A DNA stretch of 64,000 nt. Source: Bremerella sp. P1 (lineage in GTDB: Bacteria; Planctomycetota; Planctomycetia; Pirellulales; Pirellulaceae). The stretch is from NCBI RefSeq assembly GCF_028748185.1, contig NZ_CP118164.1, positions 6,349,814 through 6,413,813 on the forward strand. Direction: 5' to 3'. The notes beneath the pieces were generated by a model. It ran no database searches. It saw nothing but the letters and a program-made list of their open reading frames with translations, and was not told where the DNA came from. The position numbers and the translations under genes are program-made. Positions 12,059 through 40,564 of the stretch are shown here, piece by piece (position 1 is the stretch's first letter; every line of letters starts with the position of its first letter).

Positions 12059-12079
12059 GACAGGAAAGCCAAGCCGCTT

Positions 12080-12153: not shown

Positions 12154-12161
12154 CTTTTGTT

Positions 12162-12195
12162 AAGCCGTGAACTCATATGGGTTTACGGCTTTTTT
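12162..12195 (+). terminator. intrinsic terminator after tRNA-Arg
   Basis: AAGCCGT and ACGGCTT form a perfect 7-bp stem, extended by imperfect inner pairs (GAAC with GTTT), followed by a run of six T. It starts nine bases after the tRNA. Confidence 0.85.
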
Positions 12196-12269
12196 GTTGT
12201 CAGCCAGAAGATTCTGAGATGTTCTTGAAAATGGGCCGTTCTTGAAGCCTTCTACCCTGGCGGTGACCC

Positions 12270-12836: not shown

Positions 12837-13013
12837 TGGAAGCAGACTTCCTCACAAAGCGGAGCTAATTCAATGAATTGAAGGGGGGGACAATACCGCA
12901 AGAGGGTCATATTAAACTTCAACAAGTCGGCAGTCTATAAAATTGGAGATGCTGTGTAGGCTGGATGAATGGATGCCGAGAATCGGGCACAATGACAAAA
13001 GGAGTTCTACGTC

Positions 13014-13730
13014 ATGCCTGACCAACGAAAACACCGAGGCCCGCATCCGCTGGACCGGCAACTCTTCGACGACGAAGCGATACCTGGCCTGCGTGAAGCC
13101 GTCGCGGACTTGTCGTGGCTGTGGACGCGCGATTACGCCATTGATTCATCACTCAAACTGGTTGGCGACCGATATGCCCTCAACGCTCGACAACGTATCG
13201 CCGTTGCCCGCTGTGCCTGTAGCGACAGTGCGGTTGTCCAAAGGGGACAACATGAAGTATCCGCGTCCGAGCTTTCTGGAAATGAGCTCTGGATCGACGG
13301 CTACAATGTGCTCACTTCGGTCGAGGCCGCATTATCCCACGGAGTGATTCTACATTCGCATGACGGGTGCTTTCGTGACATGGCGAGTATGCACGGAAGT
13401 TACCGCCGGGTAGAAGAGACGGTAGCAGCAATCGAGATCATCGGCGAGTTGGCAGCCAGTTTTGGCGTTGCGAATTGCCGCTGGCTGTTTGACCAACCAG
13501 TCTCCAACAGCGGGCGATTGAAGACACTGCTTGGAAAACTGGCCGAGGAACGCGACTGGAATTGGGAGATCGACCTGGTCGCCGATCCCGATCCGTTGCT
13601 TGCAGCCACCGACCGAATCGTCGCTTCCGCCGACAGTCAAATCCTCGACAGCGCAGAACGGTGGTTCAATCTTGCCCGGATCGCCATCGAATCACGCGTG
13701 CCAAATGCTTGGGTCATCGATTTATCGTAG
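13014..13730 (+). CDS. DUF434 / DUF5616 protein
   Basis: A 238-residue protein. Residues 1-55 match DUF434 (PLDRQLFDDEAIPGLREAVADLSWLWTRDY, then LVGDRYALNARQRIAVARC), and residues 85-235 the DUF5616 region (ELWIDGYNVLTSVEAALSHG, HDGCFRDMASMHGSYRRVEET). The second half has acidic clusters that recall a PIN/NYN-type nuclease-like fold (IDGYNVL, LVADPDP), but that is inference. AGGAG lies eight bases before the ATG. Function unknown. Confidence 0.85.
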   Translation: MPDQRKHRGPHPLDRQLFDDEAIPGLREAVADLSWLWTRDYAIDSSLKLVGDRYALNARQRIAVARCACSDSAVVQRGQHEVSASELSGNELWIDGYNVLTSVEAALSHGVILHSHDGCFRDMASMHGSYRRVEETVAAIEIIGELAASFGVANCRWLFDQPVSNSGRLKTLLGKLAEERDWNWEIDLVADPDPLLAATDRIVASADSQILDSAERWFNLARIAIESRVPNAWVIDLS

Positions 13731-23985: not shown

Positions 23986-24592
23986 GATGCCAAGGTACTA
24001 TGGCCACAAGAAGAATGCCAATCTCCCAAGGTCGATTCTTGGCAATTGCTCTCGCTTGCCTCCTGTTGCTGAGGCAGTCTTACTTTCACGTTCGTAAAGA
24101 TTAGTTTGCGAATGGAAAGGTACGACTCGCCTTCGACAAGTTCCTACCAGTACTCCCGGGCGGCAGCCAACCACGCACACGCACTGTTTCAACGAACAGC
24201 CAACGTCCAGCGCGACTAGATCGCTCAGAAATGCGAAAAGTACCATCCCCCGCCAGCAACAAATCTCAATGTCTTCTTTCGCGTAAATCCGCGATAATAT
24301 TTCCGATCTCAATTGTGCATGACAATAACCCCGGTCATGGCGAAGCAACGGTTCCTTCTTAGGAAATTGGCTGAGGTGACGGATCATGGTTAATCGACGG
24401 TACCCATTACGGCGGACCTTGCCGGATAGGACAACTAGAACCGCCAAATGCCCTCTTCAGACGTTTGTGGTACAAAACAGGTACCACTAACGCTTTGCCA
24501 ATCGGCCATTGATGCCTGGCCAGGGCACTCTTAATGGTCCTCCTTTTCTTCTTAACATCTCAACACCCGCGCTAATCCCCCGGTCTCCTTTG
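23986..24592. other. 607-base intergenic stretch upstream of the giant surface protein
   Basis: No supported gene. A minus-strand open frame (23998-24447) has no recognisable domain, odd composition and no good ribosome binding site. The region separates the divergent sigma-kinase pair and the surface-protein gene, so promoters for both should be here, but I do not see a convincing -35/-10 pair. An inverted repeat near its right end is listed separately. Confidence 0.5.
24467..24487. repeat. inverted repeat upstream of the surface-protein gene
   Basis: GTGGTAC (24467-24473) and GTACCAC (24481-24487) are perfect inverse copies with a seven-base spacer, about 105 bases before the likely start at 24593. 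It could be an operator or an mRNA leader hairpin. Confidence 0.45.
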
Positions 24593-27500
24593 ATGTTCAA
24601 CGCCCCTTGGTTGCCAAGCCTGTTCCTATCCTCGCCTAAGCGTAAAAGCAGACGCAGGCAGCGACTTGGCTTGTCCAAGCACACTCACCCGTGCGTGACT
24701 TGCATTGTTTCTGGTGAAGCACTTGAAGAACGATTGGTACTTTCGGCAACGGTTGGCAACAACATCGCGGTCGGTGACGAATTCCAGAATTATCGGATTG
24801 CGATCGCCGCGACTGCCGAATTCACCGCCTATTTTGGTGACCAGAATGCCGCCCTGGCTGCTATCCAAGATACGGTCGCAGAACTCAACGAGATCTTCGA
24901 GCGCGAACTAGCTATTCACTTCGATCTGGTGAGCGGCACCAACACCATCTTTACTAACTCGTCTACCGATGGTTACACCAACGGTAACGCCAGCACGATG
25001 ATCGGCCAGAACACGCCGATTCTCAACTCCATCATTGGTGTGGGGAACTACGACATCGGGCATGTCTTCGGAACCGTATCCAGCGGCGGAAGTGGCCTAG
25101 CCGGGCTCGGGGTCGTCAACAATTCGAATTGGAAAGGACGTGGCGTTTCGTTATTCGCTGCACCTGTTGGAACCAACTTTGTGAACCTGGTCGCGCACGA
25201 GATCGGGCACCAATTCAATGCAGAGCACACGTTCAATGGGAATACTTACGGTTCAACAGCCGGGAATCGAAGTGCCAGTAGCGCCTACGAGCCAGCAAGC
25301 GGTTCTACCTTGATGAGTTACGCGGGTATCGCTGCCGACGGCAGCGGTAACGACAATCTCCAGGATCAGGAAGACGATTACTTCCACTCGGCAAGCTTTG
25401 AAGAGATCCAGACCTTCTTGGCCGGTAGCGGTGCTCCGAGTTCCACGACTCCAACTGGAAACAGCATACCCACAATTTCTGCAGGTTCGGACTACACCAT
25501 CCCTGCTGGAACGACTTTTCAACTGATTGCTTCCGGATCGGATGCCGATTCGTCGGACACACTTACCTATACGTGGGAACAATTGGACCTCGGTCCAGCG
25601 ATGAGTCTGCCGCTGTTCGATAATGGCAGTAGTCCCTTGTTTCGCTCTTTCGTACCGACAACCGACCCGTCACGAACCTTTCCTTTGCTTGACGACATCA
25701 TCAACAACGTCAATACGGCAGCAATCGGCGAGGCGCTTCCGACGACCGATCGCGATATTAACTTCCGTGCCACGGTGCGTGATGGCAACGGCGGGGTGAA
25801 CTCGGACGATACGCTGATAACTGTCGTCGCTACGGGATCGCCTTTCCAGCTGACCAACACGAACAGCGGATCAACTTGGATCGGCGGGCAGTCGCAGACG
25901 ATCACCTGGGATGTCGCCGGAACGACGGCCAATGGAATCAATGCTGCCAATGTGGCGATCGAACTCTCCGACGACGGCGGCTACACGTATGGCATTACGC
26001 TGGCGGCTTCGACGTCAAACGATGGTTCTTTCACGATCGATGTCCCCAACATTGACATCGCCCAGGCTCGAGTCCGTGTTCGTGCCATCGGCAACGTGTT
26101 TTTCGATATCTCTGATGCCGATTTCAGTATCACAAGCAATGCGAGTCTTCCCGGCGTAACAGTGACCGAATCCGGCGGCACGACGCTGATCGGCGAAGCA
26201 GGAGTTGTGGGCGGTCAGACGGTCGACACGTATACCCTTGCCCTGAATACGACTCCCAGCGGTCCCGTCGATATCACGGTCAATGCGGATTCCCAGACAG
26301 AGGTTAGTCTCGATGGCGTGAACTTCGCCTCAAGCGTTGTCGTGACTCGTTCAGACACAACGCCCCAGACCATCCATGTCCGCGGCTTTGACGACGGAGT
26401 TGAAGAAGGCATTCACAACGGATCGATTACGCACAGCGTCTCGTCGAGCAGTGATTCCAACTATCCCCTGGACATGGATATCAATTCGATCAGTGTCACC
26501 ATTGCCGACGACGAGTTGCAGCCGCTGATTGGCGTTGACTTCGACGACACCGGTTCCTCACCCACCAACTGGACAACCATCACAAGTATCTTCTCCAGCT
26601 CTAACTCCAACTTGATTCGCGAAGACGGTGCGACTTCATCGGTTGACCTCACTATCAATACCAGTGGTGGCGCCAATACAGATACGACTAGTCCACCGCC
26701 CAATTTGCCCGATCACTCACCGACTTTGTCAGGCCTGGACGGTATTCGTTTTGCCGCGAATTCCATCGTACTCACCTGGTCAGATCTCGTTCCACTGGCT
26801 GATTACGACCTGTATCTGTTTTTGTCAGAACCCTATTCCAACATTGCGATCCAGACCGTCACGATTTCTGGTGGAGGAAACAATCCGTTCCCCTTCATCA
26901 TGGATACCTCACAGACTGGCTCTGACCTGCTCGTCAACAGTGCCGTTGCCAGTCCCAGCAGGCCCTTAGAAGACGACGCCGTTCGTGCGACCGCCGACAG
27001 TAGTGGTGAAATCGTCATCACCATCTCTAACACAGGCGGCGACTATGTCTTTCTTTCCGGGGCGGCTATCCAGGCAGTCGCCCCAGTAGGTACTCCGCCT
27101 CAGGCAGTTAACGATTCATACTCGATTGACGAAGACACAACACTCAATGTTTCGGCAGCGGGCGTTCTCAGCAATGACACCGATACCGAACTGGACCCGT
27201 TGACGGCCTCACTATTGACCGGGCCGACCAATGGGTCGCTGACGCTCAATCCGGATGGGTCCTTTACCTACACACCCAACGAGAACTTCAACGGCACCGA
27301 TACCTTTACGTACCTGGCGAATGACGGCAGTTACGACTCGAATACGGCGACGGTGACCATCACGGTTAACGCGACCAACGATGAACCCGTTGCCCAGGAC
27401 GATCCGGTGACTACCGATGAAGACACACCGATCACTGTGTCAGTTCTCGATAACGATAGTGATGTCGATGGCGACACAATCAGCGTGTTATCCGTCTCCG

Positions 27501-30500
27501 ATTCCGCCAATGGCACTGCGGTCCTGAACGTGGATGGTACGGTCACCTACACGCCGAATCAGGACTTTCATGGTGAAGACACTTTCACCTACACCATCAC
27601 CGACACGAACAACGAAACGCATACGGCGACGGTAACGGTCACGGTCGATCCCATTAATGATGAGCCGGTTGCCGCGGACGATTCGGCATCCACCGACGAG
27701 GACACGGCCGTTGACATTTCTGTCTTAACCAATGACAGCGACATCGATGGCGACAAGTTGACCGTCCAGTCGGCCAGCACTCCAACCAATGGCACGACTG
27801 TGGTCAATGCTAACGGGACCATTACCTACACCCCCAACGCCAACTTCAACGGCACGGATGAATTCACCTATACGATAAGCGATGGCAACGGTGGTTCGTA
27901 TTCGGCCACGGTGACGGTTACGGTCCTTGCCCTTAACGATGCTCCCGTTGCGACCGACGATGGCTACTCGGTGGATGAAGATGGTACGCTGACCGTTCCC
28001 GCCGCTGGCGTGCTGGGTAACGATACCGATGTCGAAGATGACTCGCTTAACAGCATACTCGTGTCAGACACTGCTAATGGAACGTTAACACTCAACACAG
28101 ACGGCTCGTTTACCTATACCCCCGATGCTGACTTTTACGGAACCGACACTTTTACCTACAAGGCCAACGACGGTTCCGCAGACTCGGATCCGGCAACGGT
28201 AACCATTACCGTGAATCCGATTAATGACGCGCCCGTTGCCACCGATGACTCCGCTTCGACGAATGAAGATACGCCCGTCACGATCAATCTCTTGGCGAAT
28301 GATACAGACACCGAATCGGACTCGCTGAGTATCGAAATCGAAACGGGGCCAACCAACGGAAGCGTCGAGCAGAACCCTGACAAGACGGTGACCTACACGC
28401 CAGATCCCGATTTCCACGGCACCGATACGTTTACCTACCTGGTTACCGATGGCGACAAATCGGACACGGCCACAGTAACGGTCACCGTGCTGCCGATCAA
28501 CGATGCCCCGATCGCTGTCGACGATTCCGCGACAACGACGGAGGACGTCTCCGTCGCCATCTCGGTCTTGGACAACGACACGGATGTCGACGGCGATTCA
28601 CCCACAGTTGCTTCCGTGAGCGATCCCGCGAATGGATCGGTCGTGATCAACCAAGACGGGACGGTTACCTATACGCCTGATACCAACTTCGAAGGCAGTG
28701 ACACCTTCACCTACACCATCGATGATGGCCATGGCGAAATGGACACCGCAACGGTTACCGTCACCATCGGCGCTGTAAACGATCCTCCGGTGGCCAGTGA
28801 CGACTCGGCATCAACCGATGAAGACACATCCGTCGATATCACCGTGTTGGATAACGACAGTGATATTGACGGCGATGTGCTTAGCGTGGTCTCGGCCAGT
28901 GAGCCGGCCAACGGGACGACCGTGGTGAATGCCAACGGCACGATCACCTACACGCCCGATCCCGACTTCCACGGGACCGATACGTTCACCTATAAAATTG
29001 ATGATGGCAATAGTGGATCGGATACGGCTACGGTGACGGTGACGGTCAATCCAACAGCTGACGCACCCGAGGCCACGGATGACGATTACAACGTTGATGA
29101 GGATACGACGCTGACCATTTCTGCGGCCGGGGTCTTAGGAAACGACTCGGACGTCGATGGTGATTCGCTCACCGCGGCGGTCGTGGCTGGCCCGTCCCAC
29201 GGATCGTTGACGCTCAATAGCGATGGTTCGTTTAGCTATACCCCAAACACGAACTTCAACGGCAGCGACAGTTTTACGTACCAAGCAAATGACGGTACTG
29301 CCAACTCAAATACAGCAACCGTTACGATTGTCGTAAACGCGGTGAACGATCGGCCGGAAGCTGCGGACGACGATAGCTACTCGGTCGATGAAGATAATTC
29401 ACTGACTGTTCCTGCGGCAGGCGTGCTAGGCAATGATTCCGACATTGATGGCGACGGCTTTACTGCGGTTCTGGTCGACGGCCCTGACAATGGTGACCTG
29501 ACGCTCAATAGCGATGGTTCATTTACCTATACGCCGGACACCCACTTCAACGGCAGTGACACCTTCACCTATCTGGCCAACGATGGAATTGCCGACTCGG
29601 ATCCGGCAACTGTGACCATCACCGTCAATCCAATCAATGATGACCCTGAGGCCAGTGACGATTCGCCCACCACCGATGAAGATACGGCTGTTGACATCGC
29701 CGTATTAGACAACGACACCGATATCGACGGGGACATACTCACCGTTATTTCGGCGAGTGATCCGACCAACGGATCGGTTGTTGTGAACGCGAATGGGACA
29801 ATCACCTACACCCCAGACACCAACTTCCATGGCAGCGATTCGTTTACCTACACAATCCAGGACACCAGCGGGCAACCGAGCACGGCGACGGTCAATGTCA
29901 CGGTCAATCCGCTCAATGATCCTCCAGTCGCTCTGGATGACTCAGCGCAGACCGACGAAGGCGTGCCAGTTGTCATCACTGTCCTTGGGAACGACAGCGA
30001 CGTTGACGGTGATCAACCAAGCGTTACTTCGGCAAGTGACCCCGCCTCTGGTACGACCCAGATAAACCCGGACGGGACGATTACCTACACGCCCGATGTT
30101 GACTTTCACGGAAGCGATTCATTTACCTACAACATCGCAGATGGCAATGGCGGTAGCGCAACCGGGACCGTTTCAGTCACTGTCTCTGCCACGCAAAATG
30201 ATAGCGTCGTATCCCTGTCGTTGGCTGCGCTTGACGGCGGGGTCAGCAACGCCTCGCCACCAACATTTGGCGAAGAGCCTCCCGTATTACACGAGTGGCA
30301 GAGCGTTGGCGGACAACTTTGGCTAACCGTTGCCGAAGCATTCGATGAGATATCGGTCGACCTGGTCATCGATATCGTTTCTTCAACGGAACTGGTTGAG
30401 GCCCCAGTCATCATCGAACATGTAGGCCAAGCGGCCCAAATTGAAAGCGATGTCGTCAACACTGACCGGGCAACGCGAATTACGCTCACAGGCATTGATC

Positions 30501-31339
30501 TCTCTGGCGTTCAAATCGGTGATCATGTCTACCTGGGGACGCTCTCGTTTTCACCCAATACTTCCAATCTGGCAGGCCTGACGTCCGGTACAGACGGAGA
30601 ATATTCCCAAGGTGAAGATAATCTCGGGTTTTCCGTTAATGCCGCTGAGACCGTCGGCGGCGTTCCACTTCTATTCGCGTCTGAGGTTCCCGGTTCTATA
30701 GCCCCGGTCATCTACGATACAAACGACGACGGTCGAATCGGGCTGTCTGATTTCGCTGAGTTCATCAGTCTCTATGGACATACGGCTGACCAGAGCAAGC
30801 CAGAGGCATATCGATATGATTTCGACCGCAATGGCAAGGTATCACTGCAGGACTTTGCTTTGTTCATCCGGTATTACGGATTCACGAAAGTATCCCAGTC
30901 TGATATTGAGATGCCTGGCCTAACGAGCGAACTTGTGACTCAGGCAGCAACGTCGCAGCCCGCAGAAGAATTGATCGGCGTGTTCGCTGCCGCCCAACTC
31001 GAATCAGAGCCCAACGAAATCACATTGATCGATCAAGGCTCTGAATTTCCTGCGCAGCTAAGCGTTAGCTCACCTCAGGTAACCAATTCGACACTTGTCC
31101 CTGAGTCCCGGCACGATACTGAAAAGTCCTTTATCGAAGAGAATTCTGAATCTACAGTCCAACGTACTATCCGGGTTGATCATCTACCTCACGCACGGCT
31201 CTTCTCCAACGTTTCGTGGGAACCGCGACTTGTGGATGTCGCGGTTCAGGACGACGATGTCTTTGACTTCTCCTCGCGTGCCGTCGAGAGCGATGATGAC
31301 GACGAGTTCGCCCTCGCGCCCATTTGGCCCATAGATTGA
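24593..31339 (+). CDS. giant surface metalloprotease with 11 cadherin-like repeats and dockerin-like end
   Basis: A 2248-residue extracellular protein. The start at 24593 gives a typical planctomycete leader: a basic stretch (SSPKRKSRRRQRLG), then ALEERLVLSA, a variant of the LEPR-xLL motif. An ATG at 24509 would add 28 residues. Domains in order: a reprolysin-like (M12B) zinc protease with HEIGHQFNAEH (residues 202-212) and a Met-turn in STLMSYAG; a linker with Ig/Calx-beta-like segments; a block of eleven repeats of 92-97 residues (tandem-95/bacterial cadherin-like, each with an NDxD calcium-type motif and a TYTP...DTFTY core); a cohesin-like stretch; two dockerin-like EF loops; and an acidic tail. 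It probably acts at the cell surface in adhesion or degradation. No neighbour explains its job. Confidence 0.9.
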   Translation: MFNAPWLPSLFLSSPKRKSRRRQRLGLSKHTHPCVTCIVSGEALEERLVLSATVGNNIAVGDEFQNYRIAIAATAEFTAYFGDQNAALAAIQDTVAELNEIFERELAIHFDLVSGTNTIFTNSSTDGYTNGNASTMIGQNTPILNSIIGVGNYDIGHVFGTVSSGGSGLAGLGVVNNSNWKGRGVSLFAAPVGTNFVNLVAHEIGHQFNAEHTFNGNTYGSTAGNRSASSAYEPASGSTLMSYAGIAADGSGNDNLQDQEDDYFHSASFEEIQTFLAGSGAPSSTTPTGNSIPTISAGSDYTIPAGTTFQLIASGSDADSSDTLTYTWEQLDLGPAMSLPLFDNGSSPLFRSFVPTTDPSRTFPLLDDIINNVNTAAIGEALPTTDRDINFRATVRDGNGGVNSDDTLITVVATGSPFQLTNTNSGSTWIGGQSQTITWDVAGTTANGINAANVAIELSDDGGYTYGITLAASTSNDGSFTIDVPNIDIAQARVRVRAIGNVFFDISDADFSITSNASLPGVTVTESGGTTLIGEAGVVGGQTVDTYTLALNTTPSGPVDITVNADSQTEVSLDGVNFASSVVVTRSDTTPQTIHVRGFDDGVEEGIHNGSITHSVSSSSDSNYPLDMDINSISVTIADDELQPLIGVDFDDTGSSPTNWTTITSIFSSSNSNLIREDGATSSVDLTINTSGGANTDTTSPPPNLPDHSPTLSGLDGIRFAANSIVLTWSDLVPLADYDLYLFLSEPYSNIAIQTVTISGGGNNPFPFIMDTSQTGSDLLVNSAVASPSRPLEDDAVRATADSSGEIVITISNTGGDYVFLSGAAIQAVAPVGTPPQAVNDSYSIDEDTTLNVSAAGVLSNDTDTELDPLTASLLTGPTNGSLTLNPDGSFTYTPNENFNGTDTFTYLANDGSYDSNTATVTITVNATNDEPVAQDDPVTTDEDTPITVSVLDNDSDVDGDTISVLSVSDSANGTAVLNVDGTVTYTPNQDFHGEDTFTYTITDTNNETHTATVTVTVDPINDEPVAADDSASTDEDTAVDISVLTNDSDIDGDKLTVQSASTPTNGTTVVNANGTITYTPNANFNGTDEFTYTISDGNGGSYSATVTVTVLALNDAPVATDDGYSVDEDGTLTVPAAGVLGNDTDVEDDSLNSILVSDTANGTLTLNTDGSFTYTPDADFYGTDTFTYKANDGSADSDPATVTITVNPINDAPVATDDSASTNEDTPVTINLLANDTDTESDSLSIEIETGPTNGSVEQNPDKTVTYTPDPDFHGTDTFTYLVTDGDKSDTATVTVTVLPINDAPIAVDDSATTTEDVSVAISVLDNDTDVDGDSPTVASVSDPANGSVVINQDGTVTYTPDTNFEGSDTFTYTIDDGHGEMDTATVTVTIGAVNDPPVASDDSASTDEDTSVDITVLDNDSDIDGDVLSVVSASEPANGTTVVNANGTITYTPDPDFHGTDTFTYKIDDGNSGSDTATVTVTVNPTADAPEATDDDYNVDEDTTLTISAAGVLGNDSDVDGDSLTAAVVAGPSHGSLTLNSDGSFSYTPNTNFNGSDSFTYQANDGTANSNTATVTIVVNAVNDRPEAADDDSYSVDEDNSLTVPAAGVLGNDSDIDGDGFTAVLVDGPDNGDLTLNSDGSFTYTPDTHFNGSDTFTYLANDGIADSDPATVTITVNPINDDPEASDDSPTTDEDTAVDIAVLDNDTDIDGDILTVISASDPTNGSVVVNANGTITYTPDTNFHGSDSFTYTIQDTSGQPSTATVNVTVNPLNDPPVALDDSAQTDEGVPVVITVLGNDSDVDGDQPSVTSASDPASGTTQINPDGTITYTPDVDFHGSDSFTYNIADGNGGSATGTVSVTVSATQNDSVVSLSLAALDGGVSNASPPTFGEEPPVLHEWQSVGGQLWLTVAEAFDEISVDLVIDIVSSTELVEAPVIIEHVGQAAQIESDVVNTDRATRITLTGIDLSGVQIGDHVYLGTLSFSPNTSNLAGLTSGTDGEYSQGEDNLGFSVNAAETVGGVPLLFASEVPGSIAPVIYDTNDDGRIGLSDFAEFISLYGHTADQSKPEAYRYDFDRNGKVSLQDFALFIRYYGFTKVSQSDIEMPGLTSELVTQAATSQPAEELIGVFAAAQLESEPNEITLIDQGSEFPAQLSVSSPQVTNSTLVPESRHDTEKSFIEENSESTVQRTIRVDHLPHARLFSNVSWEPRLVDVAVQDDDVFDFSSRAVESDDDDEFALAPIWPID
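27098..30196 (+). repeat. eleven tandem cadherin-like repeats (about 280-290 bp each)
   Basis: Within the surface-protein gene. Two repeat types alternate. Type A has AAGVLxND and SLTLNxDGSFTYTP (repeats 1, 4, 8, 9). Type B has VLxNDxDxDGD and, often, VVNANGTITYTP (repeats 2, 3, 5, 6, 7, 10, 11). The order is A-B-B-A-B-B-B-A-A-B-B, which suggests growth by copying blocks of more than one repeat. Confidence 0.9.
30715..30887 (+). other. dockerin-like pair of EF-hand calcium loops
   Basis: Encodes DTNDDGRIGLSDFAEFISLYG and, 23 residues on, DFDRNGKVSLQDFALFIRYYG. Both carry the D-x-N/D-x-D/N-G-x-I/V calcium loop plus a following helix, as in type I dockerins. They lie near the C-terminus of the giant surface protein. 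Confidence 0.75.
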
Positions 31340-31381: not shown

Positions 31382-31489
31382 GGCCACCGGCCGAACCGGT
31401 CACAGGGTAAACTCCAGAATGATGAGTTGCTCGGAACGGCGATCAGGCTAGAATTCTTGAGAGTGGTACATCACGCCAAGGAGATCGCT

Positions 31490-32299
31490 ATGAGTCATCA
31501 AATTGAGAAGCTTATTGACCGACTCTGGGATTCGTATCGGATGATCAATCCCCAGGCCGACCTCATCCACAAGTTGCTCTCGGACCGCGGCGAGACGATC
31601 GTGAATGATCACATCGCGTTCAGGACGTTTCAGGATCCTCGAATAGGTATCGACCAACTGGCGGTTCCTTTTCTCGAAGGAGGCTACGAGGCTGGGGAAG
31701 AGTACCATTTCGAAGCAAAGAAGCTTTTCGCCAGGCACTATCAACACAGTGACCAGGCGTTCCCGAAAGTCTTTATCAGCGAATTGCTATTAGACGAGTT
31801 CTCCGGCGAATTTCGCGACATCATAACGCAAATGCTTGAGCAACTGCCGGACGTGAATACACTCTCGGAGCCGCTGTGCACTTCCGGACAACTTTGGAAC
31901 GTGCCGTTTGCTGACTATGAGAAGTTGAGTGAGCAAAGTGAATATGCCGCCTGGATGGCCGCCCATGGGTTCTGCGCAAACCATTTCACTGTCTTCGTGA
32001 ATGCCCTGACAACCATCGATTCGCTGCAGGATCTCAACGCACTGCTAATTCAAGAAGGGTTTGCCTTGAATCAAGAAGGCGGAGCCATCAAGGGCTCGCC
32101 TGAGGTCTACCTGGAACAATCTTCGACAGTCGCTTCGGTCGTGGAGATTCCCTTCCAGGACGGAGTGCATGCCGTGCCGGGCTGTTACTACGAATTTGCC
32201 CGGCGGTATCCTCTCCCTGATGGCTCTCTCTTTGAAGGCTTCGTTGCCAAAAGTGCCGACAAGATATTCGAGAGCACTGACAAGAAGCTACAAAACTAG
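31490..32299 (+). CDS. DUF1338 protein, 2-oxoadipate dioxygenase/decarboxylase family
   Basis: A 269-residue protein. AAGGAG lies six bases before the ATG at 31490; the open frame to 31427 is a longer unlikely start. DUF1338 motifs: NDHIAFRTF (a metal-binding His and a substrate Arg), EEYHFEAKKLFARHY, PKVFISELLLDE, VPGCYYEFARRYP. Characterised members are Fe(II) enzymes that turn 2-oxoadipate into D-2-hydroxyglutarate in lysine breakdown. This one is of the shorter class. It is convergent with the receiver-GDH gene, ten bases apart. The reaction is inferred from the family. Confidence 0.85.
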   Translation: MSHQIEKLIDRLWDSYRMINPQADLIHKLLSDRGETIVNDHIAFRTFQDPRIGIDQLAVPFLEGGYEAGEEYHFEAKKLFARHYQHSDQAFPKVFISELLLDEFSGEFRDIITQMLEQLPDVNTLSEPLCTSGQLWNVPFADYEKLSEQSEYAAWMAAHGFCANHFTVFVNALTTIDSLQDLNALLIQEGFALNQEGGAIKGSPEVYLEQSSTVASVVEIPFQDGVHAVPGCYYEFARRYPLPDGSLFEGFVAKSADKIFESTDKKLQN

Positions 32300-32308: not shown

Positions 32309-33952
32309 CTACGGGAACAGGCCACGTCGTAGCTTGGCTTCGGCGACTCGTTCGATACCTTCGATCAATGCGGCAGTACGGAAGTCGAGGTTCTGCTTCT
32401 CACTCCGACCAAGCGTCCGCTGGAAGGCATCGACCAAGATCTTCTTGAGTCGCGAGTTGATCTCATCCAGCGTCCACATGTAGTTCTGAGTTCCCTGAAC
32501 CCACTCGAAGTAAGAGACGGTGACACCACCGGCATTACCGAGAACGTCCGGAACCACGAAGACTCCTCGTTCTTTCAGGATCTCGTCGGCTTCGAGGGTT
32601 GTAGGACCGTTGGCACCTTCCGCGACCATCTTGCACTGTAGTTTCTCGACATTGCTGGCCGTGATCTGATTCTGCAAAGCACAAGGTGCCAGGATATCGC
32701 ACTTAAGCTCAAGCAACTCCTGATTGGAGACCTCGTCGGCGTGCGGGTACCCTTTCAGCACGCGATTATCCGCCACATATTGCAGCAAATCGGTCACCGA
32801 AAGTCCTTTCGGGTTATAGAGGCCAGTCGACACATCGCTAACGCCGACGACCTTGGTACCCAGTTCTTCCAGAAGTCGCGCTGTATTGCTACCGACATTA
32901 CCGAAGCCCTGAACGACCGCCGTCGCTCCTGGCATCGACAGCCCCATTACCTTGGCGGCTTCTTCGATGACATACACAAGACCTCGGCCGGTGGCTTCGC
33001 GGCGGCCTAACGATCCGCCTAAGGCCACTGGCTTACCGGTGACAATGGTCGGAACCGAATAGCCAAGCTGCTGGCTGTATGTGTCCATCAGCCAAGCCAT
33101 CACCTGTTCGTTGGTACCCATGTCCGGTGCGGGAATGTCCTTCTCGGGTCCGATCATTTCGATGATTTCCATCGTGTAACGCCGCGTTAAACGCTGCATC
33201 TCGTGGCTGGTCAACACGGTGGGGTCGATGCGGACACCACCTTTGGCCCCGCCAAACGGAAGACGCATCAGCGCACACTTCCAAGTCATCCACATCGCCA
33301 AGGCAGACACTTCGCCGAGACCGACATCTTCATGATAGCGAATACCCCCTTTGGTTGGCCCCATTGTCAAGAGATGCTGAACTCGATAGCCGAATACCGT
33401 CTCGACATGGGTGTAGCGATCTCTTCGAAACGGCAACGTTACCACAAGTGTCCGTTGAGGGAATAAGAGACGCTCTCGCAAGTTCTCGTCGAGGCTCATA
33501 ATCTGAGCCGCTTTAAGAAACTGCTGTTGAGACAGGTGCAGCATGGGAGAATTCCACTCTTGCTGCTCAGCATGCGTTCGCTTAACGGCCAGTTTCAATG
33601 AACGGGCGAGGCGGTGTCCATCGATCTTTCCCTTAATCAAGTAGTCTTGGGCACCTGCTTCTACGGCCTTGGCAGCCAGAGAAATATCGTCATTGCCTGT
33701 CAGCACGACGACTGGAATGTTGCCGGCCGCCTCGTGCATCCGCAGAAACGTCGGAAGCCCTTCGCTATCAGGCAGCGTGAGATCGAGCAAAATGGCATCG
33801 GGGCGATTCTGCGACAGGTAATTGAGGCCTGACTCCAAGCGTTCGACGCTGAAAATCGTGAACTTGGTATCGCCCGTTTCGGAAAGAAGTTCCTCGATCA
33901 GTTTGGCTTGAAGCGGGTTATCTTCAACGACAAGAACAAGAATTTCCGACAT
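32309..33952 (-). CDS. receiver domain fused to glutamate dehydrogenase
   Basis: A 547-residue single open frame. Residues 1-125 form a CheY-like receiver with all key residues: acidic pair E10/D11 (VVEDN), phospho-acceptor D57 (ILLDLTLPD), T85 (VVLTGND) and K107 (YLIKGK). After a short linker (HAEQQEWNSP), residues 137-547 are a complete Glu/Leu/Phe/Val dehydrogenase: K201 in GPTKGGIRYH, catalytic K237 in FGGAKGGVR, D277 in PAPDMGTN, and the Rossmann motif QGFGNVGSNTA (348-358). The enzyme would interconvert glutamate and 2-oxoglutarate plus ammonium. The receiver is in the position of a regulatory domain but the output is an enzyme, not DNA binding. It is divergent from the arginine succinyltransferase operon, whose end product is glutamate. 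No histidine kinase is in the window. Confidence 0.93.
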   Translation of the reverse strand: MSEILVLVVEDNPLQAKLIEELLSETGDTKFTIFSVERLESGLNYLSQNRPDAILLDLTLPDSEGLPTFLRMHEAAGNIPVVVLTGNDDISLAAKAVEAGAQDYLIKGKIDGHRLARSLKLAVKRTHAEQQEWNSPMLHLSQQQFLKAAQIMSLDENLRERLLFPQRTLVVTLPFRRDRYTHVETVFGYRVQHLLTMGPTKGGIRYHEDVGLGEVSALAMWMTWKCALMRLPFGGAKGGVRIDPTVLTSHEMQRLTRRYTMEIIEMIGPEKDIPAPDMGTNEQVMAWLMDTYSQQLGYSVPTIVTGKPVALGGSLGRREATGRGLVYVIEEAAKVMGLSMPGATAVVQGFGNVGSNTARLLEELGTKVVGVSDVSTGLYNPKGLSVTDLLQYVADNRVLKGYPHADEVSNQELLELKCDILAPCALQNQITASNVEKLQCKMVAEGANGPTTLEADEILKERGVFVVPDVLGNAGGVTVSYFEWVQGTQNYMWTLDEINSRLKKILVDAFQRTLGRSEKQNLDFRTAALIEGIERVAEAKLRRGLFP

Positions 33953-34021
33953 CGCTGGCTCCTGTCAAAGTCGGCTGGGGTGGCGACAGGGTAAAAATCG
34001 ACACGCGTCCGCTAACATTCT

Positions 34022-34052
34022 ATGGCGTAAAATACCCAATGGCGCGTAAAAT
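34022..34052. repeat. direct repeat in the divergent GDH/arginine-operon promoter region
   Basis: ATGGCGTAAAAT (34022-34033) and ATGGCGCGTAAAAT (34039-34052) are near copies, 17 bases start to start, in the 129-base gap between the two divergent genes. They may be a regulator's binding site acting on one or both promoters. Confidence 0.45.
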
Positions 34053-34081
34053 CTCTATTAACTCTTTTCGGCAGGATGGCC

Positions 34082-35320
34082 ATGGCACTGGAATCGGAAG
34101 TTCAAACCATCTTATCCCGCATTCAAACACAGCGGGATGAAATGCTTCACCAACTGGTGCGATGGGCAGCTATCAATTCTGGCACTAGCAACCTGGCAGG
34201 CCTTCGCCAGCTAGGCGATCTCGTACTCGACGATCTTCGGACCTTTTCTGACGATGCCCATGCAATTTCTGTCGAGCCGCAGCTTTTTGTTAACCAACAT
34301 GGCGACTTGAAAGAACGCCCTATTGGCGACGTCCTATTAGGAGTTTGCCGCACGGGTGCTCCCCAGCAGGCGATCTTGTCGATTCATTTGGATACCGTCT
34401 ATCCCAACGAATCTCCTTTTCAGAATGTAAAGCAAGAGGGTGAACTACTTCACGGCCCCGGCGTGGCCGATGCCAAAGGGGGCCTCGTTGTCCTTTTATG
34501 GGCACTCAAAGCATTTGAGGAATACGTCGAAACAACCGGTCACCTCAACCTGGGATGGAAGGTCATTCTCAATAGCGACGAAGAAATCGGATCGCCTGCT
34601 TCTCGCGAGGTCTTCAGTACTCATAGTGAAGGAGTCGATTTTGGTTTGCTGTTCGAACCTTGTCTGCCCAACGGTAGTCTTGTGGGGCAGCGGAAGGGAT
34701 CGGGCAACTTTGAGATTGTCGTCCGAGGGCAAGCGGCGCACGCAGGACGTGAGTTTCATAAGGGGCGTAACGCAATAGTTGCTGCGGCCCATGTCACCCA
34801 GAAGCTGCATGCCCTGAATGGGCGCTGGAAAGACACCACAATCAATGTCGCCAAAATTGACGGCGGAGGTCCCACCAACGTCGTACCAGACACGGCCGTC
34901 GTCCGTTTCAACATCCGTTATCCATCCGCGGACATCGAGGCTCCGTTCAATGCGGCGCTCGATCGAATTGTCGAGGAAACGGGAGACGGGATTACCTTGA
35001 TACGACATGGTGGATTCTTCGCCCCACCCAAACCGCTGACCGAAGAATATGAATCATTGCTCAAGACTGTTCAGGCCAGTGGCAAGACACTTGGGATTGA
35101 TTTCTCCTGGGAGTCGACCGGCGGCGTCTGCGATGGCAACCGCCTGGCAGCACTCGGTGTGCCCAATATCGATACGATGGGCGTCCGCGGGGGCAATATC
35201 CATTCCCCTCAGGAATACATGCACTGCGACAGTTTGGTCCAGCGAACGCAGCTCACCTTCCTCACTTTGGTAACCCTTGCCGAAAGATTTCGACAGGCCG
35301 GGACTTCAACCAAGGCGTAA
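34082..35320 (+). CDS. M20/CPG2-family zinc hydrolase, candidate succinylglutamate desuccinylase
   Basis: A 412-residue M20 peptidase-like enzyme. Metal ligands are visible in SIHLDTVYP (His, Asp), GPGVADAKGG (bridging Asp), NSDEEIGSP (catalytic and metal Glu) and the C-terminal NIHSPQEYMH; the dimerisation-domain His is in GQAAHAGREFH. The ATG at 34082 is preferred to 34076 because AGGA then sits five bases upstream. It is first in the operon with the class III aminotransferase, astA, astD and astB. The usual last enzyme of that pathway, AstE (an M14-type enzyme), is missing, so this hydrolase is the likely substitute for removing succinate from N-succinylglutamate. That is inference from context. 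Confidence 0.88.
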   Translation: MALESEVQTILSRIQTQRDEMLHQLVRWAAINSGTSNLAGLRQLGDLVLDDLRTFSDDAHAISVEPQLFVNQHGDLKERPIGDVLLGVCRTGAPQQAILSIHLDTVYPNESPFQNVKQEGELLHGPGVADAKGGLVVLLWALKAFEEYVETTGHLNLGWKVILNSDEEIGSPASREVFSTHSEGVDFGLLFEPCLPNGSLVGQRKGSGNFEIVVRGQAAHAGREFHKGRNAIVAAAHVTQKLHALNGRWKDTTINVAKIDGGGPTNVVPDTAVVRFNIRYPSADIEAPFNAALDRIVEETGDGITLIRHGGFFAPPKPLTEEYESLLKTVQASGKTLGIDFSWESTGGVCDGNRLAALGVPNIDTMGVRGGNIHSPQEYMHCDSLVQRTQLTFLTLVTLAERFRQAGTSTKA

Positions 35321-35355: not shown

Positions 35356-36753
35356 ATGGAATCCAAATCCCTGATTGCCCAACAGCTTTTGTCTGATCCC
35401 CGTGTCGCCCAGGCAACGGAACTTCTTACCGCCGCGTTGGCAGAACATTCTGCCAAGCTGTCTGCCCGCGGTCCCATCCCGGAACTCACCGAGCCTTACC
35501 AGAAGTGGCTAGACGTATTCGCTCAGCTGCGCGGCAACGCGCTGTTCTTTCCATACCTCGGAAGTGGAGCAGGGCAGGGGGCGCTTGTCGAACTAGCGGA
35601 TGGAAGCGTCAAATACGACATGATTACCGGTATTGGCGTCCACGCGATGGGACATGCCAACACGGATCTTCTGCCAGAACTCATTCCTGCGGTGCTCTCG
35701 GATACGGTCATGCAGGGAAATCTCCAACAGAACACCGAATCACTACTGCTGAGCAAACAACTGGTCACTCTCGCCAATCAACACGGGGCTTCGCTAAATC
35801 ATTGCTTCTTATCCAGCAGTGGAGCCATGGCCAATGAAAACGCAATCAAAGTTCTGTTCCAACACAAAGTCGGATCAAGCCGCATTTTGGCATTCCAAAA
35901 CGCGTTTGCTGGTCGGACGCACCTGACTGGCCAAGTTACCGATCGCCCTAAGAACCGGGTCGGTCAGCCTCTGACGGTACCGGTCGACTACGTTCCCTTT
36001 TTTGATGCCAGTCGTCCCGAGGAGAGCACCCAGGAGACACTGCAAATCGTTGAAAGGTATCTCCAACGTTATCCGGATGCGCACTGCGGCTTCATCATGG
36101 AACTCGTGCAAGGAGAAGGGGGCTACTATAGCGCGCCACGCGAGTACTTTGTTTCGCTCTGCGAACTGCTCAAGAGACACAAGGTTCCCGTCTTCTTCGA
36201 CGAGATTCAAACGTTCGGCCGAACATACGCCCCGTTCGCGTTTCAGATGCTCGAACTCGATGAATTCGCCGACGTCGTCACGGTGGGCAAAATGTCTCAG
36301 ATATGTGCGACGTTCTTTCGCCAAGAGCTCAATCCGAAGCCAGGACTATTGAGTCAGACCTTCACCTCCTCCACGACTGCGATCGTTACTGCGCGCTGGA
36401 TCTTGCGGAAACTGGTTGAAGGCAATTTCTATGGTCCTCAGGGTCGCATTGCCGATATACACAGTAGGTTTGTGAGACGGTTCGAGGCAATTCATGCGAA
36501 AGCCCCAGACCGCATACAAGGCCCGTGGGGCATTGGCGGCATGATTGCTTTTACGCCGCTGGATGGCTCTGCCGACGCTGCGAAGAAAGTACTGCATGCC
36601 TTGTACGAAGCAGGCGTGATCGCGTTTGTCGCCGGAGCGGGACCAGCACGCGTACGGTTCCTGCCTCCATTTCTTTCGTTGACTGATGACGAAATTGAGA
36701 ACGTCTGTGACATCCTGGAAAGTGTCCTGCTGTCTCCGGAATTGAATTCCTAG
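35356..36753 (+). CDS. class III aminotransferase, probable succinylornithine transaminase
   Basis: A 465-residue PLP enzyme of the acetylornithine/4-aminobutyrate class. A strong AAGGAGG precedes the ATG. Motifs: SSSGAMANENAIK (cofactor phosphate binding), VPVFFDEIQTFGRT (PLP-binding Asp), and the PLP lysine in VVTVGKMSQ. The last motif differs from the usual KALGGG of AstC/ArgD and is closer in shape to the KxxQ of lysine 6-aminotransferases. Between the M20 gene and astA it most simply acts as AstC, moving the delta-amino group of succinylornithine to 2-oxoglutarate, but lysine as substrate is possible given the DUF1338 gene nearby. Confidence 0.85.
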   Translation: MESKSLIAQQLLSDPRVAQATELLTAALAEHSAKLSARGPIPELTEPYQKWLDVFAQLRGNALFFPYLGSGAGQGALVELADGSVKYDMITGIGVHAMGHANTDLLPELIPAVLSDTVMQGNLQQNTESLLLSKQLVTLANQHGASLNHCFLSSSGAMANENAIKVLFQHKVGSSRILAFQNAFAGRTHLTGQVTDRPKNRVGQPLTVPVDYVPFFDASRPEESTQETLQIVERYLQRYPDAHCGFIMELVQGEGGYYSAPREYFVSLCELLKRHKVPVFFDEIQTFGRTYAPFAFQMLELDEFADVVTVGKMSQICATFFRQELNPKPGLLSQTFTSSTTAIVTARWILRKLVEGNFYGPQGRIADIHSRFVRRFEAIHAKAPDRIQGPWGIGGMIAFTPLDGSADAAKKVLHALYEAGVIAFVAGAGPARVRFLPPFLSLTDDEIENVCDILESVLLSPELNS

Positions 36754-36782: not shown

Positions 36783-37808
36783 ATGCTCATTCGGCCTGTA
36801 GAACAACGCGATCTCGATCAACTGCATGACTTGGCTCAGCTGACCAAGTACGGGCTCACGACCCTTCCGAAAGATCGAGCGACCTTCGAGAAACGGGTGC
36901 GGCAAAGTCTGCGAGCATTCGAAGACTTGAACGACGCCGATCCGCAAGGACAGCTCTATTTGTTCGTTATGGAAGACACTGCTTCGCAAAAAGTGGTCGG
37001 TACGTGTGGCATTGTATCGAAGGTTGGTGGCTTCAAGCCTTTCTACGCGTTTCGCCTCGAGACCGAGATCCAGCAGTCGAAGACTCTCGGCAGCAAGCAC
37101 GAACACCGCGTTTTGCACCTGTTCAAGAACCATGACGGGCCGACGGAGATCGGCAGTCTTTTTCTGCATCCCGAGTATCGCGGCGGAGGAAATGGCCGCG
37201 TGTTATCGCTATCACGCTTTCTGTTCCTTGCCGAGTACCCGAAGCTATTCGAGCAGGAAGTTATTGCCGAAATGCGTGGCGTTGTCGATGAAGCGGGGCA
37301 CAGCCCGTTCTGGGAGGCGTTGGGCGTCCATTTCTTCGGCATCGACTTTCCCAATGCCGATATGCTGAGCCTCATCAATAAAGACTTTATTGAAGAACTA
37401 ATCCCTCGCCATCCTGTTTACCTCGACTTGCTTTCCCCTGAGGCCCAGGCTTCGGTGGCCGAGGTGCACCCCAATACCGTCCCGGCTCGGCGACTCTTAG
37501 AGGGTGAAGGTTTCGCATACCATGACATGGTCGACATCTTCGAAGCGGGCCCGGTACTTCAATGCTCACAAGCGAATATCCGCACCGTGAAGGAGAGTCG
37601 CGAACTGCCAGTTGTGTCCGTTGAATCCACGTTAGGAGAAGGCGCGCTACCGGCCATTGTCTCGGCGAAGGACAGCTTCTTCCGGGCCAGTGGTGGCAAG
37701 GTCGCCCAGACGCCTGACGGACTCGTACTCGAGTCGCAATTGGCAGAAGATTTGCAAGTCAGCGTTGGTCAGACGGTTCGCTTCGCTCCCCTGAAAGCAT
37801 CTTGTTGA
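36783..37808 (+). CDS. astA: arginine N-succinyltransferase
   Basis: A 341-residue enzyme, the usual family length, that joins succinyl-CoA to arginine in the first step of the AST pathway. Family motifs: MLIRPVEQRDLDQLHDLA at the start, GTCGIVSKVGGFKPFYAF, IGSLFLHPEYRGGGNGRVLSLSRFLF, and AEMRGVVDEAGHSPFWEALG. GAAGGAG precedes the ATG. It lies 29 bases after the aminotransferase gene and 24 before astD. No truncation or odd residue seen. Confidence 0.95.
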   Translation: MLIRPVEQRDLDQLHDLAQLTKYGLTTLPKDRATFEKRVRQSLRAFEDLNDADPQGQLYLFVMEDTASQKVVGTCGIVSKVGGFKPFYAFRLETEIQQSKTLGSKHEHRVLHLFKNHDGPTEIGSLFLHPEYRGGGNGRVLSLSRFLFLAEYPKLFEQEVIAEMRGVVDEAGHSPFWEALGVHFFGIDFPNADMLSLINKDFIEELIPRHPVYLDLLSPEAQASVAEVHPNTVPARRLLEGEGFAYHDMVDIFEAGPVLQCSQANIRTVKESRELPVVSVESTLGEGALPAIVSAKDSFFRASGGKVAQTPDGLVLESQLAEDLQVSVGQTVRFAPLKASC

Positions 37809-37832: not shown

Positions 37833-39263
37833 ATGAATTACATCGATGGAAACTGGCAACAAGGCTCCGGTGATCCCTTTGTCAGCGAGAACCCCGTCAC
37901 CGGCGAACAACTCTGGCAGGGAAATGCGGCCACGCTCGATGAAGTACGTCGCGCTTTCAATGCGGCGGCAGAATCGCAAGTAAGCTGGCGCAATCGATCC
38001 TGGGAAGAACGTGCCGAAGTGCTTCGTCGTTTTGCTGAACTTGCCGATAAGCATTCCAATTCGCTCGCGAAGGCGATCTCGAACGAAGTTGGCAAGGCGT
38101 TCTGGGATGCCACGACCGAAGCGAAAGCAGTTGCTGCCAAATGCGCGATTACGATTGAAGCGTATCAGCACCTTCGTGATGACACTCAAGTGAGTACGAA
38201 CACTCTCAAGGGGCGCGTCATTTACCGACCGCTTGGTGTCGTGGGAGTGATCGGTCCCTTTAATTTTCCTGCTCATATCGCCAACGGTCAGATCGTACCT
38301 GCACTGTTGGCTGGCAATAGTGTGGTTTTCAAACCGAGCGAGCTAACCCCACACGTCGCGCAGGTGATGGTCGAGCTATGGGAAAAGGCTGGCTTACCAT
38401 CAGGTGTTTTGAATCTTGTGCAAGGGGGCATCCCCACCAGTCAGGCTATCTTAGCCGAGCCGCATCTCCGAGGACTGTTCTTCACCGGTAGTCGCGCCAC
38501 GGGCATCAAACTACGGGAAGCCCTAACCACGCGTCTTGAGGTTCTGTTGGCCTTGGAACTAGGAGGCAACAATCCCCTCGTCGTCCACCAAGTGGAGAAC
38601 ATTGACGACGCCGTGGACAAAGTAGTCAAGTCCGCGTTTCTTACCTCAGGGCAGCGCTGCACCTGTGCGCGAAGGCTCATCGTTACTGGTGACGCACGGC
38701 CGTTGTTAGACCGACTCGCTGAAAAGACGCGTGAGGTGACCGTCGGACCTCCGAGTGATCAACCCGAACCATTCATGGGATCCTTGATCCATGCGAATGC
38801 TGTTGAGGATGTCATCAAGTTTCAAGCCGAGTTGACAAATCATGGAGCGGTTCCACTTATTCCAGCGGAGCGGATGTCACTCGGACCCGCTTTCGTCAGC
38901 CCGGGGATCGTGGACGTCACGGCCTGTGCAGCGCGACGGGATGAAGAAGTGTTTGGACCACTTTTACAAGTCATACGGGTCCCTGACCTGGATGCGGCGA
39001 TTCGTGAGGCGAACGATACCCAGTATGGGCTCGCTGCCGGGATCTTGTGCGGTGAGCGGGCGGACTTCGATCGATTCCGCAATCAGGTAACCGCCGGATT
39101 AATTAACTGGAATTTACCCACAACCGGCGCAAGCGGACGACTCCCCTTTGGGGGAATCGGGCAGAGTGGCAACTATCGCCCGGCTGGCTATCACGCAATT
39201 AACTTTTGCCATACTCCGATTGCTGAGGTCGAGGCTGTCCAGGAAGGAGCCGAGACAAAGTGA
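37833..39263 (+). CDS. astD: N-succinylglutamate 5-semialdehyde dehydrogenase
   Basis: A 476-residue NAD(P)-dependent aldehyde dehydrogenase. Motifs: VIGPFNFPAHIANG (N-terminal Asn), FTGSRATGIKLRE, LELGGNNPLVV (general-base Glu), and the catalytic Cys in SGQRCTCARRL. It oxidises succinylglutamate semialdehyde to succinylglutamate. The similarity pattern and operon place support AstD rather than a general ALDH. The stop codon overlaps the GTG of astB (GTGA). Confidence 0.95.
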   Translation: MNYIDGNWQQGSGDPFVSENPVTGEQLWQGNAATLDEVRRAFNAAAESQVSWRNRSWEERAEVLRRFAELADKHSNSLAKAISNEVGKAFWDATTEAKAVAAKCAITIEAYQHLRDDTQVSTNTLKGRVIYRPLGVVGVIGPFNFPAHIANGQIVPALLAGNSVVFKPSELTPHVAQVMVELWEKAGLPSGVLNLVQGGIPTSQAILAEPHLRGLFFTGSRATGIKLREALTTRLEVLLALELGGNNPLVVHQVENIDDAVDKVVKSAFLTSGQRCTCARRLIVTGDARPLLDRLAEKTREVTVGPPSDQPEPFMGSLIHANAVEDVIKFQAELTNHGAVPLIPAERMSLGPAFVSPGIVDVTACAARRDEEVFGPLLQVIRVPDLDAAIREANDTQYGLAAGILCGERADFDRFRNQVTAGLINWNLPTTGASGRLPFGGIGQSGNYRPAGYHAINFCHTPIAEVEAVQEGAETK

Positions 39264-40564
39264 CCACCTACGAAGTGAATTTTGATGGGCTCATTGGGCC
39301 GACGCATCACTACGGTGGGCTTTCCCACGGAAATCTGGCATCGGTCGGGCATCGACATGCTATTTCCTCACCACGTAGTGCAGCACTTCAGGGGCTAGCG
39401 AAAATGATGCGTGTGGCCGACTTGGGGATCCCACAAGCATTTCTTCCCCCACAACGTCGCCCCGATCTCGCGTTTCTGGAAGTACAAGGATTCTCGGGTT
39501 CGCCGGCCGAGCGGATTTCTGCAACTGGGCAGCAGCGACCGGACCTGCTCAGCATTGCTTACAGTGCTTCAGCCATGTGGACGGCCAATGCAGCAACCGT
39601 TTCTCCCAGCAGCGATTGTGAAGATGGCCGGGTTCACTTCACGCCAGCCAACTTGCAGACGATGCCGCATCGAGCGTTGGAAGCACGGCAGACAACCAAG
39701 ACACTTAGAACGATCTTTCACGACAAAAATCATTTTGTCGTTCACGAACCGGTGACTGCGGGGGTCGAAACAAGCGACGAAGGGGCCGCCAATCATACCA
39801 GGCTTTGCCGCAGCTACGGCGGTCCCGGGGTCGAGATATTTGTTTATGGTCGCGAGCAAGACGATCACCACCAAACCCAGCGATTTCCGGTCCGTCAAAC
39901 GCGAGCGGCATCAGAAGCGATCGCCACTTCGCACATGCTCAATCCCCAACGTTGCGTCTTCGCGCGGCAACATCCAGACGCGATCGACGCTGGCGTGTTT
40001 CATAACGACGTGATCTCCGTCGGAAATCAATCGTTTCATCTCGTTCATGAGTTCGCGTTTGCCGATCAAGATCGCGTTTTAGCTGAGATTTCGGACACTT
40101 TTGGACCTGGGCTACAGCAAATTGTGGTGACCGATCAGGAACTATCTTTGCCCGATGCTGTTCAAAGCTATTTCTTCAACAGTCAACTCATCACCACTGG
40201 TTCCAATCAGATGCTGTTGCTCTGCCCCATTGAATGTTCGGAGAACGCAGCCGCGAATCGATTAGTCGCCAGCCTGCTGAAAGCTGACAACCCAATCTAC
40301 GATTGCCAATTCGTCGATCTTCGCGAAAGTATGCAGAATGGTGGAGGCCCCGCCTGCTTGCGTCTGCGGGTCGTTCTCACCGAAGAAGAGCGGGCGGTAT
40401 TGCCCCCTTCGGTGTTCATTACCCAGAGGCAATACCGCCAGCTATGTGATTGGGTGAAGCGGCACTATCGCTCACAGCTTACCGTGGACGACCTTGCCGA
40501 TCCACGCTTGATCGACGAAGTCGCCATCGCCATGCAGGAACTCGACGAGATGCTTGGCTTCTAA
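39260..40564 (+). CDS. astB: N-succinylarginine dihydrolase
   Basis: A 434-residue enzyme that hydrolyses succinylarginine to succinylornithine, CO2 and two ammonium. Typical start EVNFDGLIGPTHHYGGLSHGN, then SPRSAALQGLAKMM, FLPPQRRPD, TPANLQTMPHRALEA, FHNDVISVGNQSFHLVHE (catalytic His region) and MQNGGGPACLRLRVVLTEEE with the likely nucleophilic Cys. GTG start coupled to astD. It ends in a four-base tail-to-tail overlap with the amidase gene. Confidence 0.96.
   Translation: MTTYEVNFDGLIGPTHHYGGLSHGNLASVGHRHAISSPRSAALQGLAKMMRVADLGIPQAFLPPQRRPDLAFLEVQGFSGSPAERISATGQQRPDLLSIAYSASAMWTANAATVSPSSDCEDGRVHFTPANLQTMPHRALEARQTTKTLRTIFHDKNHFVVHEPVTAGVETSDEGAANHTRLCRSYGGPGVEIFVYGREQDDHHQTQRFPVRQTRAASEAIATSHMLNPQRCVFARQHPDAIDAGVFHNDVISVGNQSFHLVHEFAFADQDRVLAEISDTFGPGLQQIVVTDQELSLPDAVQSYFFNSQLITTGSNQMLLLCPIECSENAAANRLVASLLKADNPIYDCQFVDLRESMQNGGGPACLRLRVVLTEEERAVLPPSVFITQRQYRQLCDWVKRHYRSQLTVDDLADPRLIDEVAIAMQELDEMLGF

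Follow-up and report, generated by a model that had tools for sequence, protein, structure and literature searches.

CheB and PleD are response regulators with enzymatic output domains. The protein described here, REC-GDH, resembles such regulators in having an N-terminal receiver with intact phosphorylation residues, a C-terminal enzyme, and a kinase gene that often adjoins its own. Unlike them, its output part is that of a central amino-acid dehydrogenase, glutamate dehydrogenase (GDH), the meeting point of carbon and nitrogen metabolism. According to the accessible portion of one report (PMC5847659), bacterial receiver domains are known to be attached to standard metabolic enzymes, and Table 1 of the 2009 article on the P2CS database (PMC2716373) lists GDH (EC 1.4.1.3) as "Probable" in two-component systems. 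That entry belongs to a filter list and, within the portion of the article available, comes without a named protein and says nothing of conservation, a partner kinase, or a mechanism. The initial annotation of this locus held that control of GDH by phosphorylation had not been described in an experiment. Our search of the open-licence literature agrees, having found no experimental report on REC-GDH, but the 2009 table had already anticipated GDH as a two-component enzyme. Two candidates were rejected on the available parts of their sources: Helo_3049 of Halomonas elongata could not be tied to the fusion as a studied member, and GrtR (PMC12918730) is a response regulator with a DNA-binding output.

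The window, a 64-kb stretch of DNA that was analyzed as a whole, encodes REC-GDH in a single open reading frame (Table 1). The uninterrupted frame of 547 codons reported in the initial annotation was borne out, and its strand, left unstated there, is the minus strand. The start at position 33952 lies four codons past the preceding in-frame stop, in an open frame of 551 amino acids. The fusion of a receiver to a full GDH was also upheld. Pfam identified Response_reg at residues 6 to 108 (E = 1.9e-20; PF00072, 73.5 bits against a cut-off of 30.2), followed by the two GDH domains at residues 165 to 544, ELFV_dehydrog_N at 165 to 293 (E = 1.3e-50) and ELFV_dehydrog at 312 to 544 (E = 8.1e-82). Every residue that had been named was found: the full receiver set of the acidic pair E10/D11, the phospho-Asp D57, T85, and K107, as well as K201, K237, and D277 of the GDH part, to which we add K225 and S480. 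Both ELFV domains and the catalytic residues are intact, and the fold match agrees, with Thermotoga maritima type GDHs as the closest solved structures (54% identity; match over residues 138 to 547). None of the solved-structure chains among the matches listed (60 and 50 chains) covers the receiver part. Judging from its sequence, REC-GDH is likely to have GDH activity, an activity that the NCBIfam equivalog models do not assign; the protein falls below the cut-offs of NF040817 (486.8 versus 750) and NF041398 (478.9 versus 620), both archaeal by name, and below that of PRK09414 (279.4 versus 536). An AlphaFold2 model (mean pLDDT, 90; pTM, 0.85), for which the input alignment consisted of 42 of the 62 fused relatives introduced below, predicts an uninterrupted helix over residues 112 to 134 that extends the last receiver helix toward the GDH part.

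Table 1. REC-GDH, its parts, and its neighbors in the window
Feature	Positions	Strand	Basis or remarks
HGLS (2-oxoadipate dioxygenase/decarboxylase) family protein	31427..32299	plus	Convergent with REC-GDH
REC-GDH fusion gene	32309..33952	minus	547 aa; single ORF and Pfam
GDH part, residues 140-547	32312..33535	minus	K201, K225, K237, D277, S480; GFGNVG Rossmann motif
Predicted continuous helix, residues 112-134, from receiver to GDH	33551..33619	minus	AlphaFold2 model
Receiver domain, residues 1-122 (Pfam 6-108)	33587..33952	minus	E10/D11, D57, T85, K107; coordinates derived from residue numbers
Divergent intergenic region between REC-GDH and the M20/ast genes	33953..34075		123 bp
M20 family hydrolase, candidate AstE (succinylglutamate desuccinylase) substitute	34076..35320	plus	Role inferred
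Class-III aminotransferase, candidate AstC (succinylornithine transaminase)	35356..36753	plus	Below the NCBIfam cut-offs shown; role inferred
AstA-like arginine N-succinyltransferase	36783..37808	plus	TIGR03243 above cut-off; TIGR03244 359.9 versus 391
AstD succinylglutamate-semialdehyde dehydrogenase	37833..39263	plus	TIGR03240 579.6 versus 579.3
AstB N-succinylarginine dihydrolase	39260..40564	plus	TIGR03241 543.6 versus 538.3

Close relatives carry the same gene. The fusion was present at 87 to 96% identity in all five other genomes sampled from the window's genus (6/6 with the window), which makes a missed frameshift unlikely and led us to rule out an artefact. A planctomycete-only oddity was likewise ruled out by fusions in other phyla and in plasmid records. 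Among the best 80 genome-contig loci, 13 carried the fusion, and further candidates existed. With E cut-offs of 1e-100 to 1e-150, the genome searches may have missed remote fused members. In their samples, all counted with the seeds, the fusion occurred in 11 of 149 genomes of the window's family, plus one in which it was split over contigs, and in 11 of 392 genomes of its phylum, five of them shared with the family sample and two incomplete at one end. Elsewhere, it was found in 6/151 genomes of the family of Halomonas stenophila (two of the six with a damaged GDH), in 1/369 of the class of that species (the seed itself), and in the phyla of loci L006 (14/16), L007 (9/64), and L016 (9/188, one cut by a contig end). 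The Halomonas protein also matched nine plasmid records, from Sinorhizobium fredii, S. chiapasense, and Ensifer adhaerens, at 78 to 79% identity. REC-GDH is a conserved family with a patchy spread over several phyla, and this distribution, because it is patchy and crosses phyla, suggests horizontal transfer.

For residue conservation, our comparison took in 62 fused loci, made up of the window, 13 genome-contig loci, and 48 further loci, leaving out the fragments G084/L098 and G1265/L154, which both hold receiver sequence, and G1323/L178, which holds only the GDH end. D57 and K107 were kept in all 62, while D11 was kept in 59 and position 85 was T or S in 59. On the GDH side, K201 was kept in 58, K225 in 60, K237 in 61, D277 in 59, and S480 in 60. 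The linker between the two parts, from K107 to M137, measured 31 residues in every protein. The initial annotation had asked for conservation of the domain order, D57, and the linker in relatives, and each was found. Within the window's genus, the receiver looks to be under purifying selection: dN/dS was 0.02 to 0.12 in four of the five comparisons with congeners, and in the fifth, where dS was saturated, pN/pS was 0.23.

Fused genes also differed from unfused ones in their surroundings. A hybrid histidine kinase gene lay within 500 nt of 44 of the 62 fused genes but of none of 79 unfused GDH genes (Fisher P = 2.5e-22, a value that overstates independence because many of the loci are related). 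The kinase was downstream on the same strand in 37 cases, upstream on the same strand in 6, and convergent in 1. When the count is limited to loci flanked on each side by at least 3 kb of sequence, it adjoined 38 of 53 fused and 0 of 54 unfused genes; loci L009, L222, and L189 stop close to the gene, so that a kinase may have been cut off, and were counted as lacking one. The search profile derives from eight kinases of fused loci and therefore favors their kin; in five of the 79 unfused loci, weaker kinase matches lay 2 to 8 kb away. The association recurs in the window's phylum and in Pseudomonadota, as well as in the Lujinxingia group and in genomes titled Gemmatimonadota or Latescibacterota. 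With its cluster of 44 loci, the kinase was by far the commonest shared neighbor. Two other clusters, of five loci each, likewise cross phyla; the remaining ones are single-lineage, antisense, or small, and a 17-locus cluster consists, at the loci inspected (L009, L012, and L221), of spurious open reading frames antisense to the GDH gene.

The kinases share a transmitter architecture. Pfam found HisKA and HATPase in each of the 12 that were scanned, together with at least one REC domain and, in 11 of them, two; ten also carry Hpt. A profile made from the Hpt domains of those ten matched 38 of the 44 adjacent kinases, the exceptions being those of L194, L208, L209, L211, L214, and L216, of which the L216 kinase is truncated. 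At the H-box, 42 kinases have SHE and 2 have SHD. Sensor parts vary, comprising CHASE, dCache-HAMP-PAS, PAS_7, or DUF4154/YfiR-like domains or no named Pfam domain. Of the nine plasmid records from Sinorhizobium/Ensifer, five were inspected, NGR234 included; in each, a kinase with Hpt follows REC-GDH, and all ten key residues of REC-GDH are intact. In the NGR234 locus (L273), the pair occupies 8995-10644 and 10683-13652. In one S. fredii record (strain NXT3; locus L269, 8781-11628), the annotation divides the kinase that follows REC-GDH into two overlapping coding sequences. In an Ensifer adhaerens record (locus L271, 1-6260), genes for methylaspartate mutase, methylaspartate ammonia-lyase, and fumarate hydratase lie near REC-GDH; by their assigned functions, the methylaspartate genes upstream are again a glutamate-breakdown context. 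Distance correlations over 40 loci were 0.947 for kinase and receiver, 0.698 for kinase and GDH, and 0.659 for receiver and GDH. We dropped them as proof of pairing: without L198, L199, and L013 (37 loci), they became 0.948, 0.934, and 0.891, and because the values converge, a kinase-receiver bond is not separable from shared descent.

We favor, with reasonable confidence, the interpretation that REC-GDH is a response regulator with a GDH output, probably catabolic, that is switched by a phosphorelay. From the domain arrangement, we infer that in many lineages phosphate would pass from the HisKA histidine of the adjacent kinase to the aspartate of its internal REC domain, then to the Hpt histidine, and finally to D57. 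Kinases without Hpt (5/44, with the cut L216 excluded) would need a direct or a separate transfer step. Phosphorylation of D57 would alter the pairing of receivers, and the extended alpha5 helix could relay this change to the N-terminal part of a putative GDH hexamer, where catalysis would be raised or lowered.

The genomic setting of the window offers a plausible place for such an output. Genes astA, astD, and astB are all present beside REC-GDH, and six neighbors (HGLS, M20 hydrolase, aminotransferase, AstA, AstD, and AstB) flank the fusion in all six genomes of the genus. The AstA-like protein scores below the AstA equivalog cut-off and above that of the AstA/AOST subfamily. A promoter scan found no sigma-70-like site in the divergent region between REC-GDH and the M20 gene. 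AstE (PF04952) had no match in the six genomes of the genus and, among 14 controls, matched only in Escherichia coli, the model being 76 positions long; the M20 hydrolase that heads the cluster may take over the AstE step. The arginine succinyltransferase pathway leads from arginine to glutamate, and because it yields glutamate, a catabolic GDH makes sense here. In the window's genus, REC-GDH would dispose of this glutamate and return 2-oxoglutarate for the transaminase of the ast cluster, under a kinase encoded elsewhere. This neighborhood is confined to the window's genus among the 62 fused loci, the other 56 having neither AstA nor AstB nearby.

Other genes of the window were noted in passing. 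The HGLS gene shares the window with a gene for an FAD-oxidase/Fer4 protein at 49362-52340 (Pfam), and our guess from these domains is that the two proteins might together make and oxidize 2-hydroxyglutarate. An open reading frame of 2,276 amino acids at 24509-31339 contains many tandem repeats, with a metalloprotease-like HEIGH motif near its start and dockerin-like repeats near its end, both read by eye. A protein of 1,197 amino acids at 56477-60070 carries DUF7133, HEAT repeats, and a cytochrome c domain.

Two-component control of GDH, as put forward in the initial annotation, gains from the spread of the fusion over several phyla, the invariance of D57 and K107, the fixed linker, and the kinase linkage, but the window and its genus have no such neighboring kinase. 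No open reading frame of at least 60 amino acids in the whole 64 kb matched the kinase profile, none of seven large ones scanned with Pfam is a kinase, and none of the six genomes of the genus has a kinase next to the fusion. It is possible, then, that the receiver in the window's lineage no longer takes phosphate and is a mere structural N-terminal domain of an ordinary GDH. Damaged or incomplete receivers were found in four of the 62 fused proteins, L186, L187, and L188 from the window's own family and L189 from another, where it is uncertain at a contig end. Every one of them comes from the 18 loci that lack a neighboring kinase gene, and none from the 44 that have one (P = 0.0055); leaving out L189, which runs off its contig, the count is 3/17 (P = 0.019). 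Receiver damage thus seems to accompany loss of the adjacent kinase.

The GDH tree bears on the same question. It comprises 70 rows, 41 of the 62 fused proteins (21 near copies were dropped) and 29 of the 79 unfused ones, the latter hand-picked; a quick method was used, no root was inferred, and many branches are weak. On this unrooted tree, the fused state requires two changes, and one gain followed by one later loss is one reading of them, given the weak branches. A nested group without the receiver holds planctomycete and gammaproteobacterial rows, and a member of the window's family adjoins a Rhodopirellula row, a placement that points to a planctomycete origin for the window. The existence of these nested relatives indicates that the receiver is dispensable for the enzyme, which fits a domain that has become a relic. 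Against this stand the receivers of the window and its congeners, intact in 6/6 and apparently under purifying selection, and the many hybrid kinases of the genome. The window's genome has 17 matches to the kinase profile, and the best-scoring one (G000:C1:1953416-1955416) is conserved in the genus. Its genus clade lies beside gammaproteobacterial GDH-linked kinases (support 89/93, not starred) within a broad kinase family, good matches to which also occur in genomes without the fusion. Because the receiver of the genus is intact despite the lack of an adjacent kinase, a kinase for the window's REC-GDH is likely to be encoded elsewhere in the genome. We therefore regard a relic receiver as unlikely, though it is the most serious of the alternatives.

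The phosphorelay interpretation also had to be weighed against a reversed flow of information, in which glutamate, 2-oxoglutarate, or NAD(H) is sensed by the GDH part, which in turn adjusts the receiver; the receiver would then serve as a phosphate sink or as a feedback arm on the kinase, and catalysis would be secondary. What speaks for it is a set of proteins with damaged GDH parts. In two proteins from the family of Halomonas stenophila, L198 and L199, residues K201, K225, D277, and S480 are lost; L214 has lost K201 and D277; and L207 has lost K201 and K237. All four keep D57 and K107, an adjacent kinase is present at each except L207, and each of the genomes holds other full-length PF00208 matches. 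These four are probably not ordinary GDHs. Since 4 of 62 proteins have lost catalytic residues yet keep D57, catalysis is not always the output, and the claim in the initial annotation that the signal would switch glutamate catabolism fails for some members. No other result argues as strongly against a purely catalytic role. Reversed flow as a general account is nevertheless quite improbable, given that each catalytic residue checked is kept in 58 to 61 of the 62 proteins and that, among 28 fused genomes, seven (4/12 and 3/16) contain no PF00208 match other than REC-GDH. The window's genome carries a second, unfused GDH, a point against the favored interpretation. Finally, a chance fusion, in which an ordinary constitutive GDH bears a receiver of no regulatory meaning, might be suspected from the unfused relatives of about 75% identity in the window's family, but conservation over several phyla with a fixed linker and invariant D57 and K107, along with kinase linkage in 44/62 versus 0/79 loci, makes it highly improbable.

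If REC-GDH works as a phosphorylated regulator, its receiver would allow glutamate breakdown to respond to a sensed signal immediately, with no need for transcription. Because kinase and fusion lie side by side in Sinorhizobium fredii NGR234, the proposal can be put to a direct test in that strain, and the relatives with damaged GDH parts provide a natural experiment on which function has been conserved, catalysis or regulation. A wider proposal, which we offer as tentative and rather doubtful, is that in several phyla a dedicated four-step phosphorelay ends on a metabolic enzyme rather than on DNA, that varied sensors (PAS, CHASE, dCache, and YfiR-like) set glutamate breakdown, and that some GDH parts have become non-catalytic, phosphorylation-controlled regulatory subunits of the cell's other GDH.

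Among known systems, the hexameric GDHs of the Thermotoga, Thermus, and RocG type have the same fold as the GDH part, with 54% identity for the T. maritima enzyme, but their listed chains, unlike REC-GDH, have no receiver part. The hetero-hexameric GDH of Thermus thermophilus (3aoe), in which one subunit is regulatory, is a model for the damaged REC-GDHs, which, as a guess by analogy, could act as regulatory subunits in the same manner; its listed chains differ from REC-GDH in having no receiver domain. In Actinobacteria, GarA and PknG are likewise reported to exert phosphorylation-dependent control at the enzyme level, over glutamate metabolism and the TCA cycle. That system uses a Ser/Thr kinase and a separate binding protein, whereas in REC-GDH the receiver is fused to the enzyme itself.
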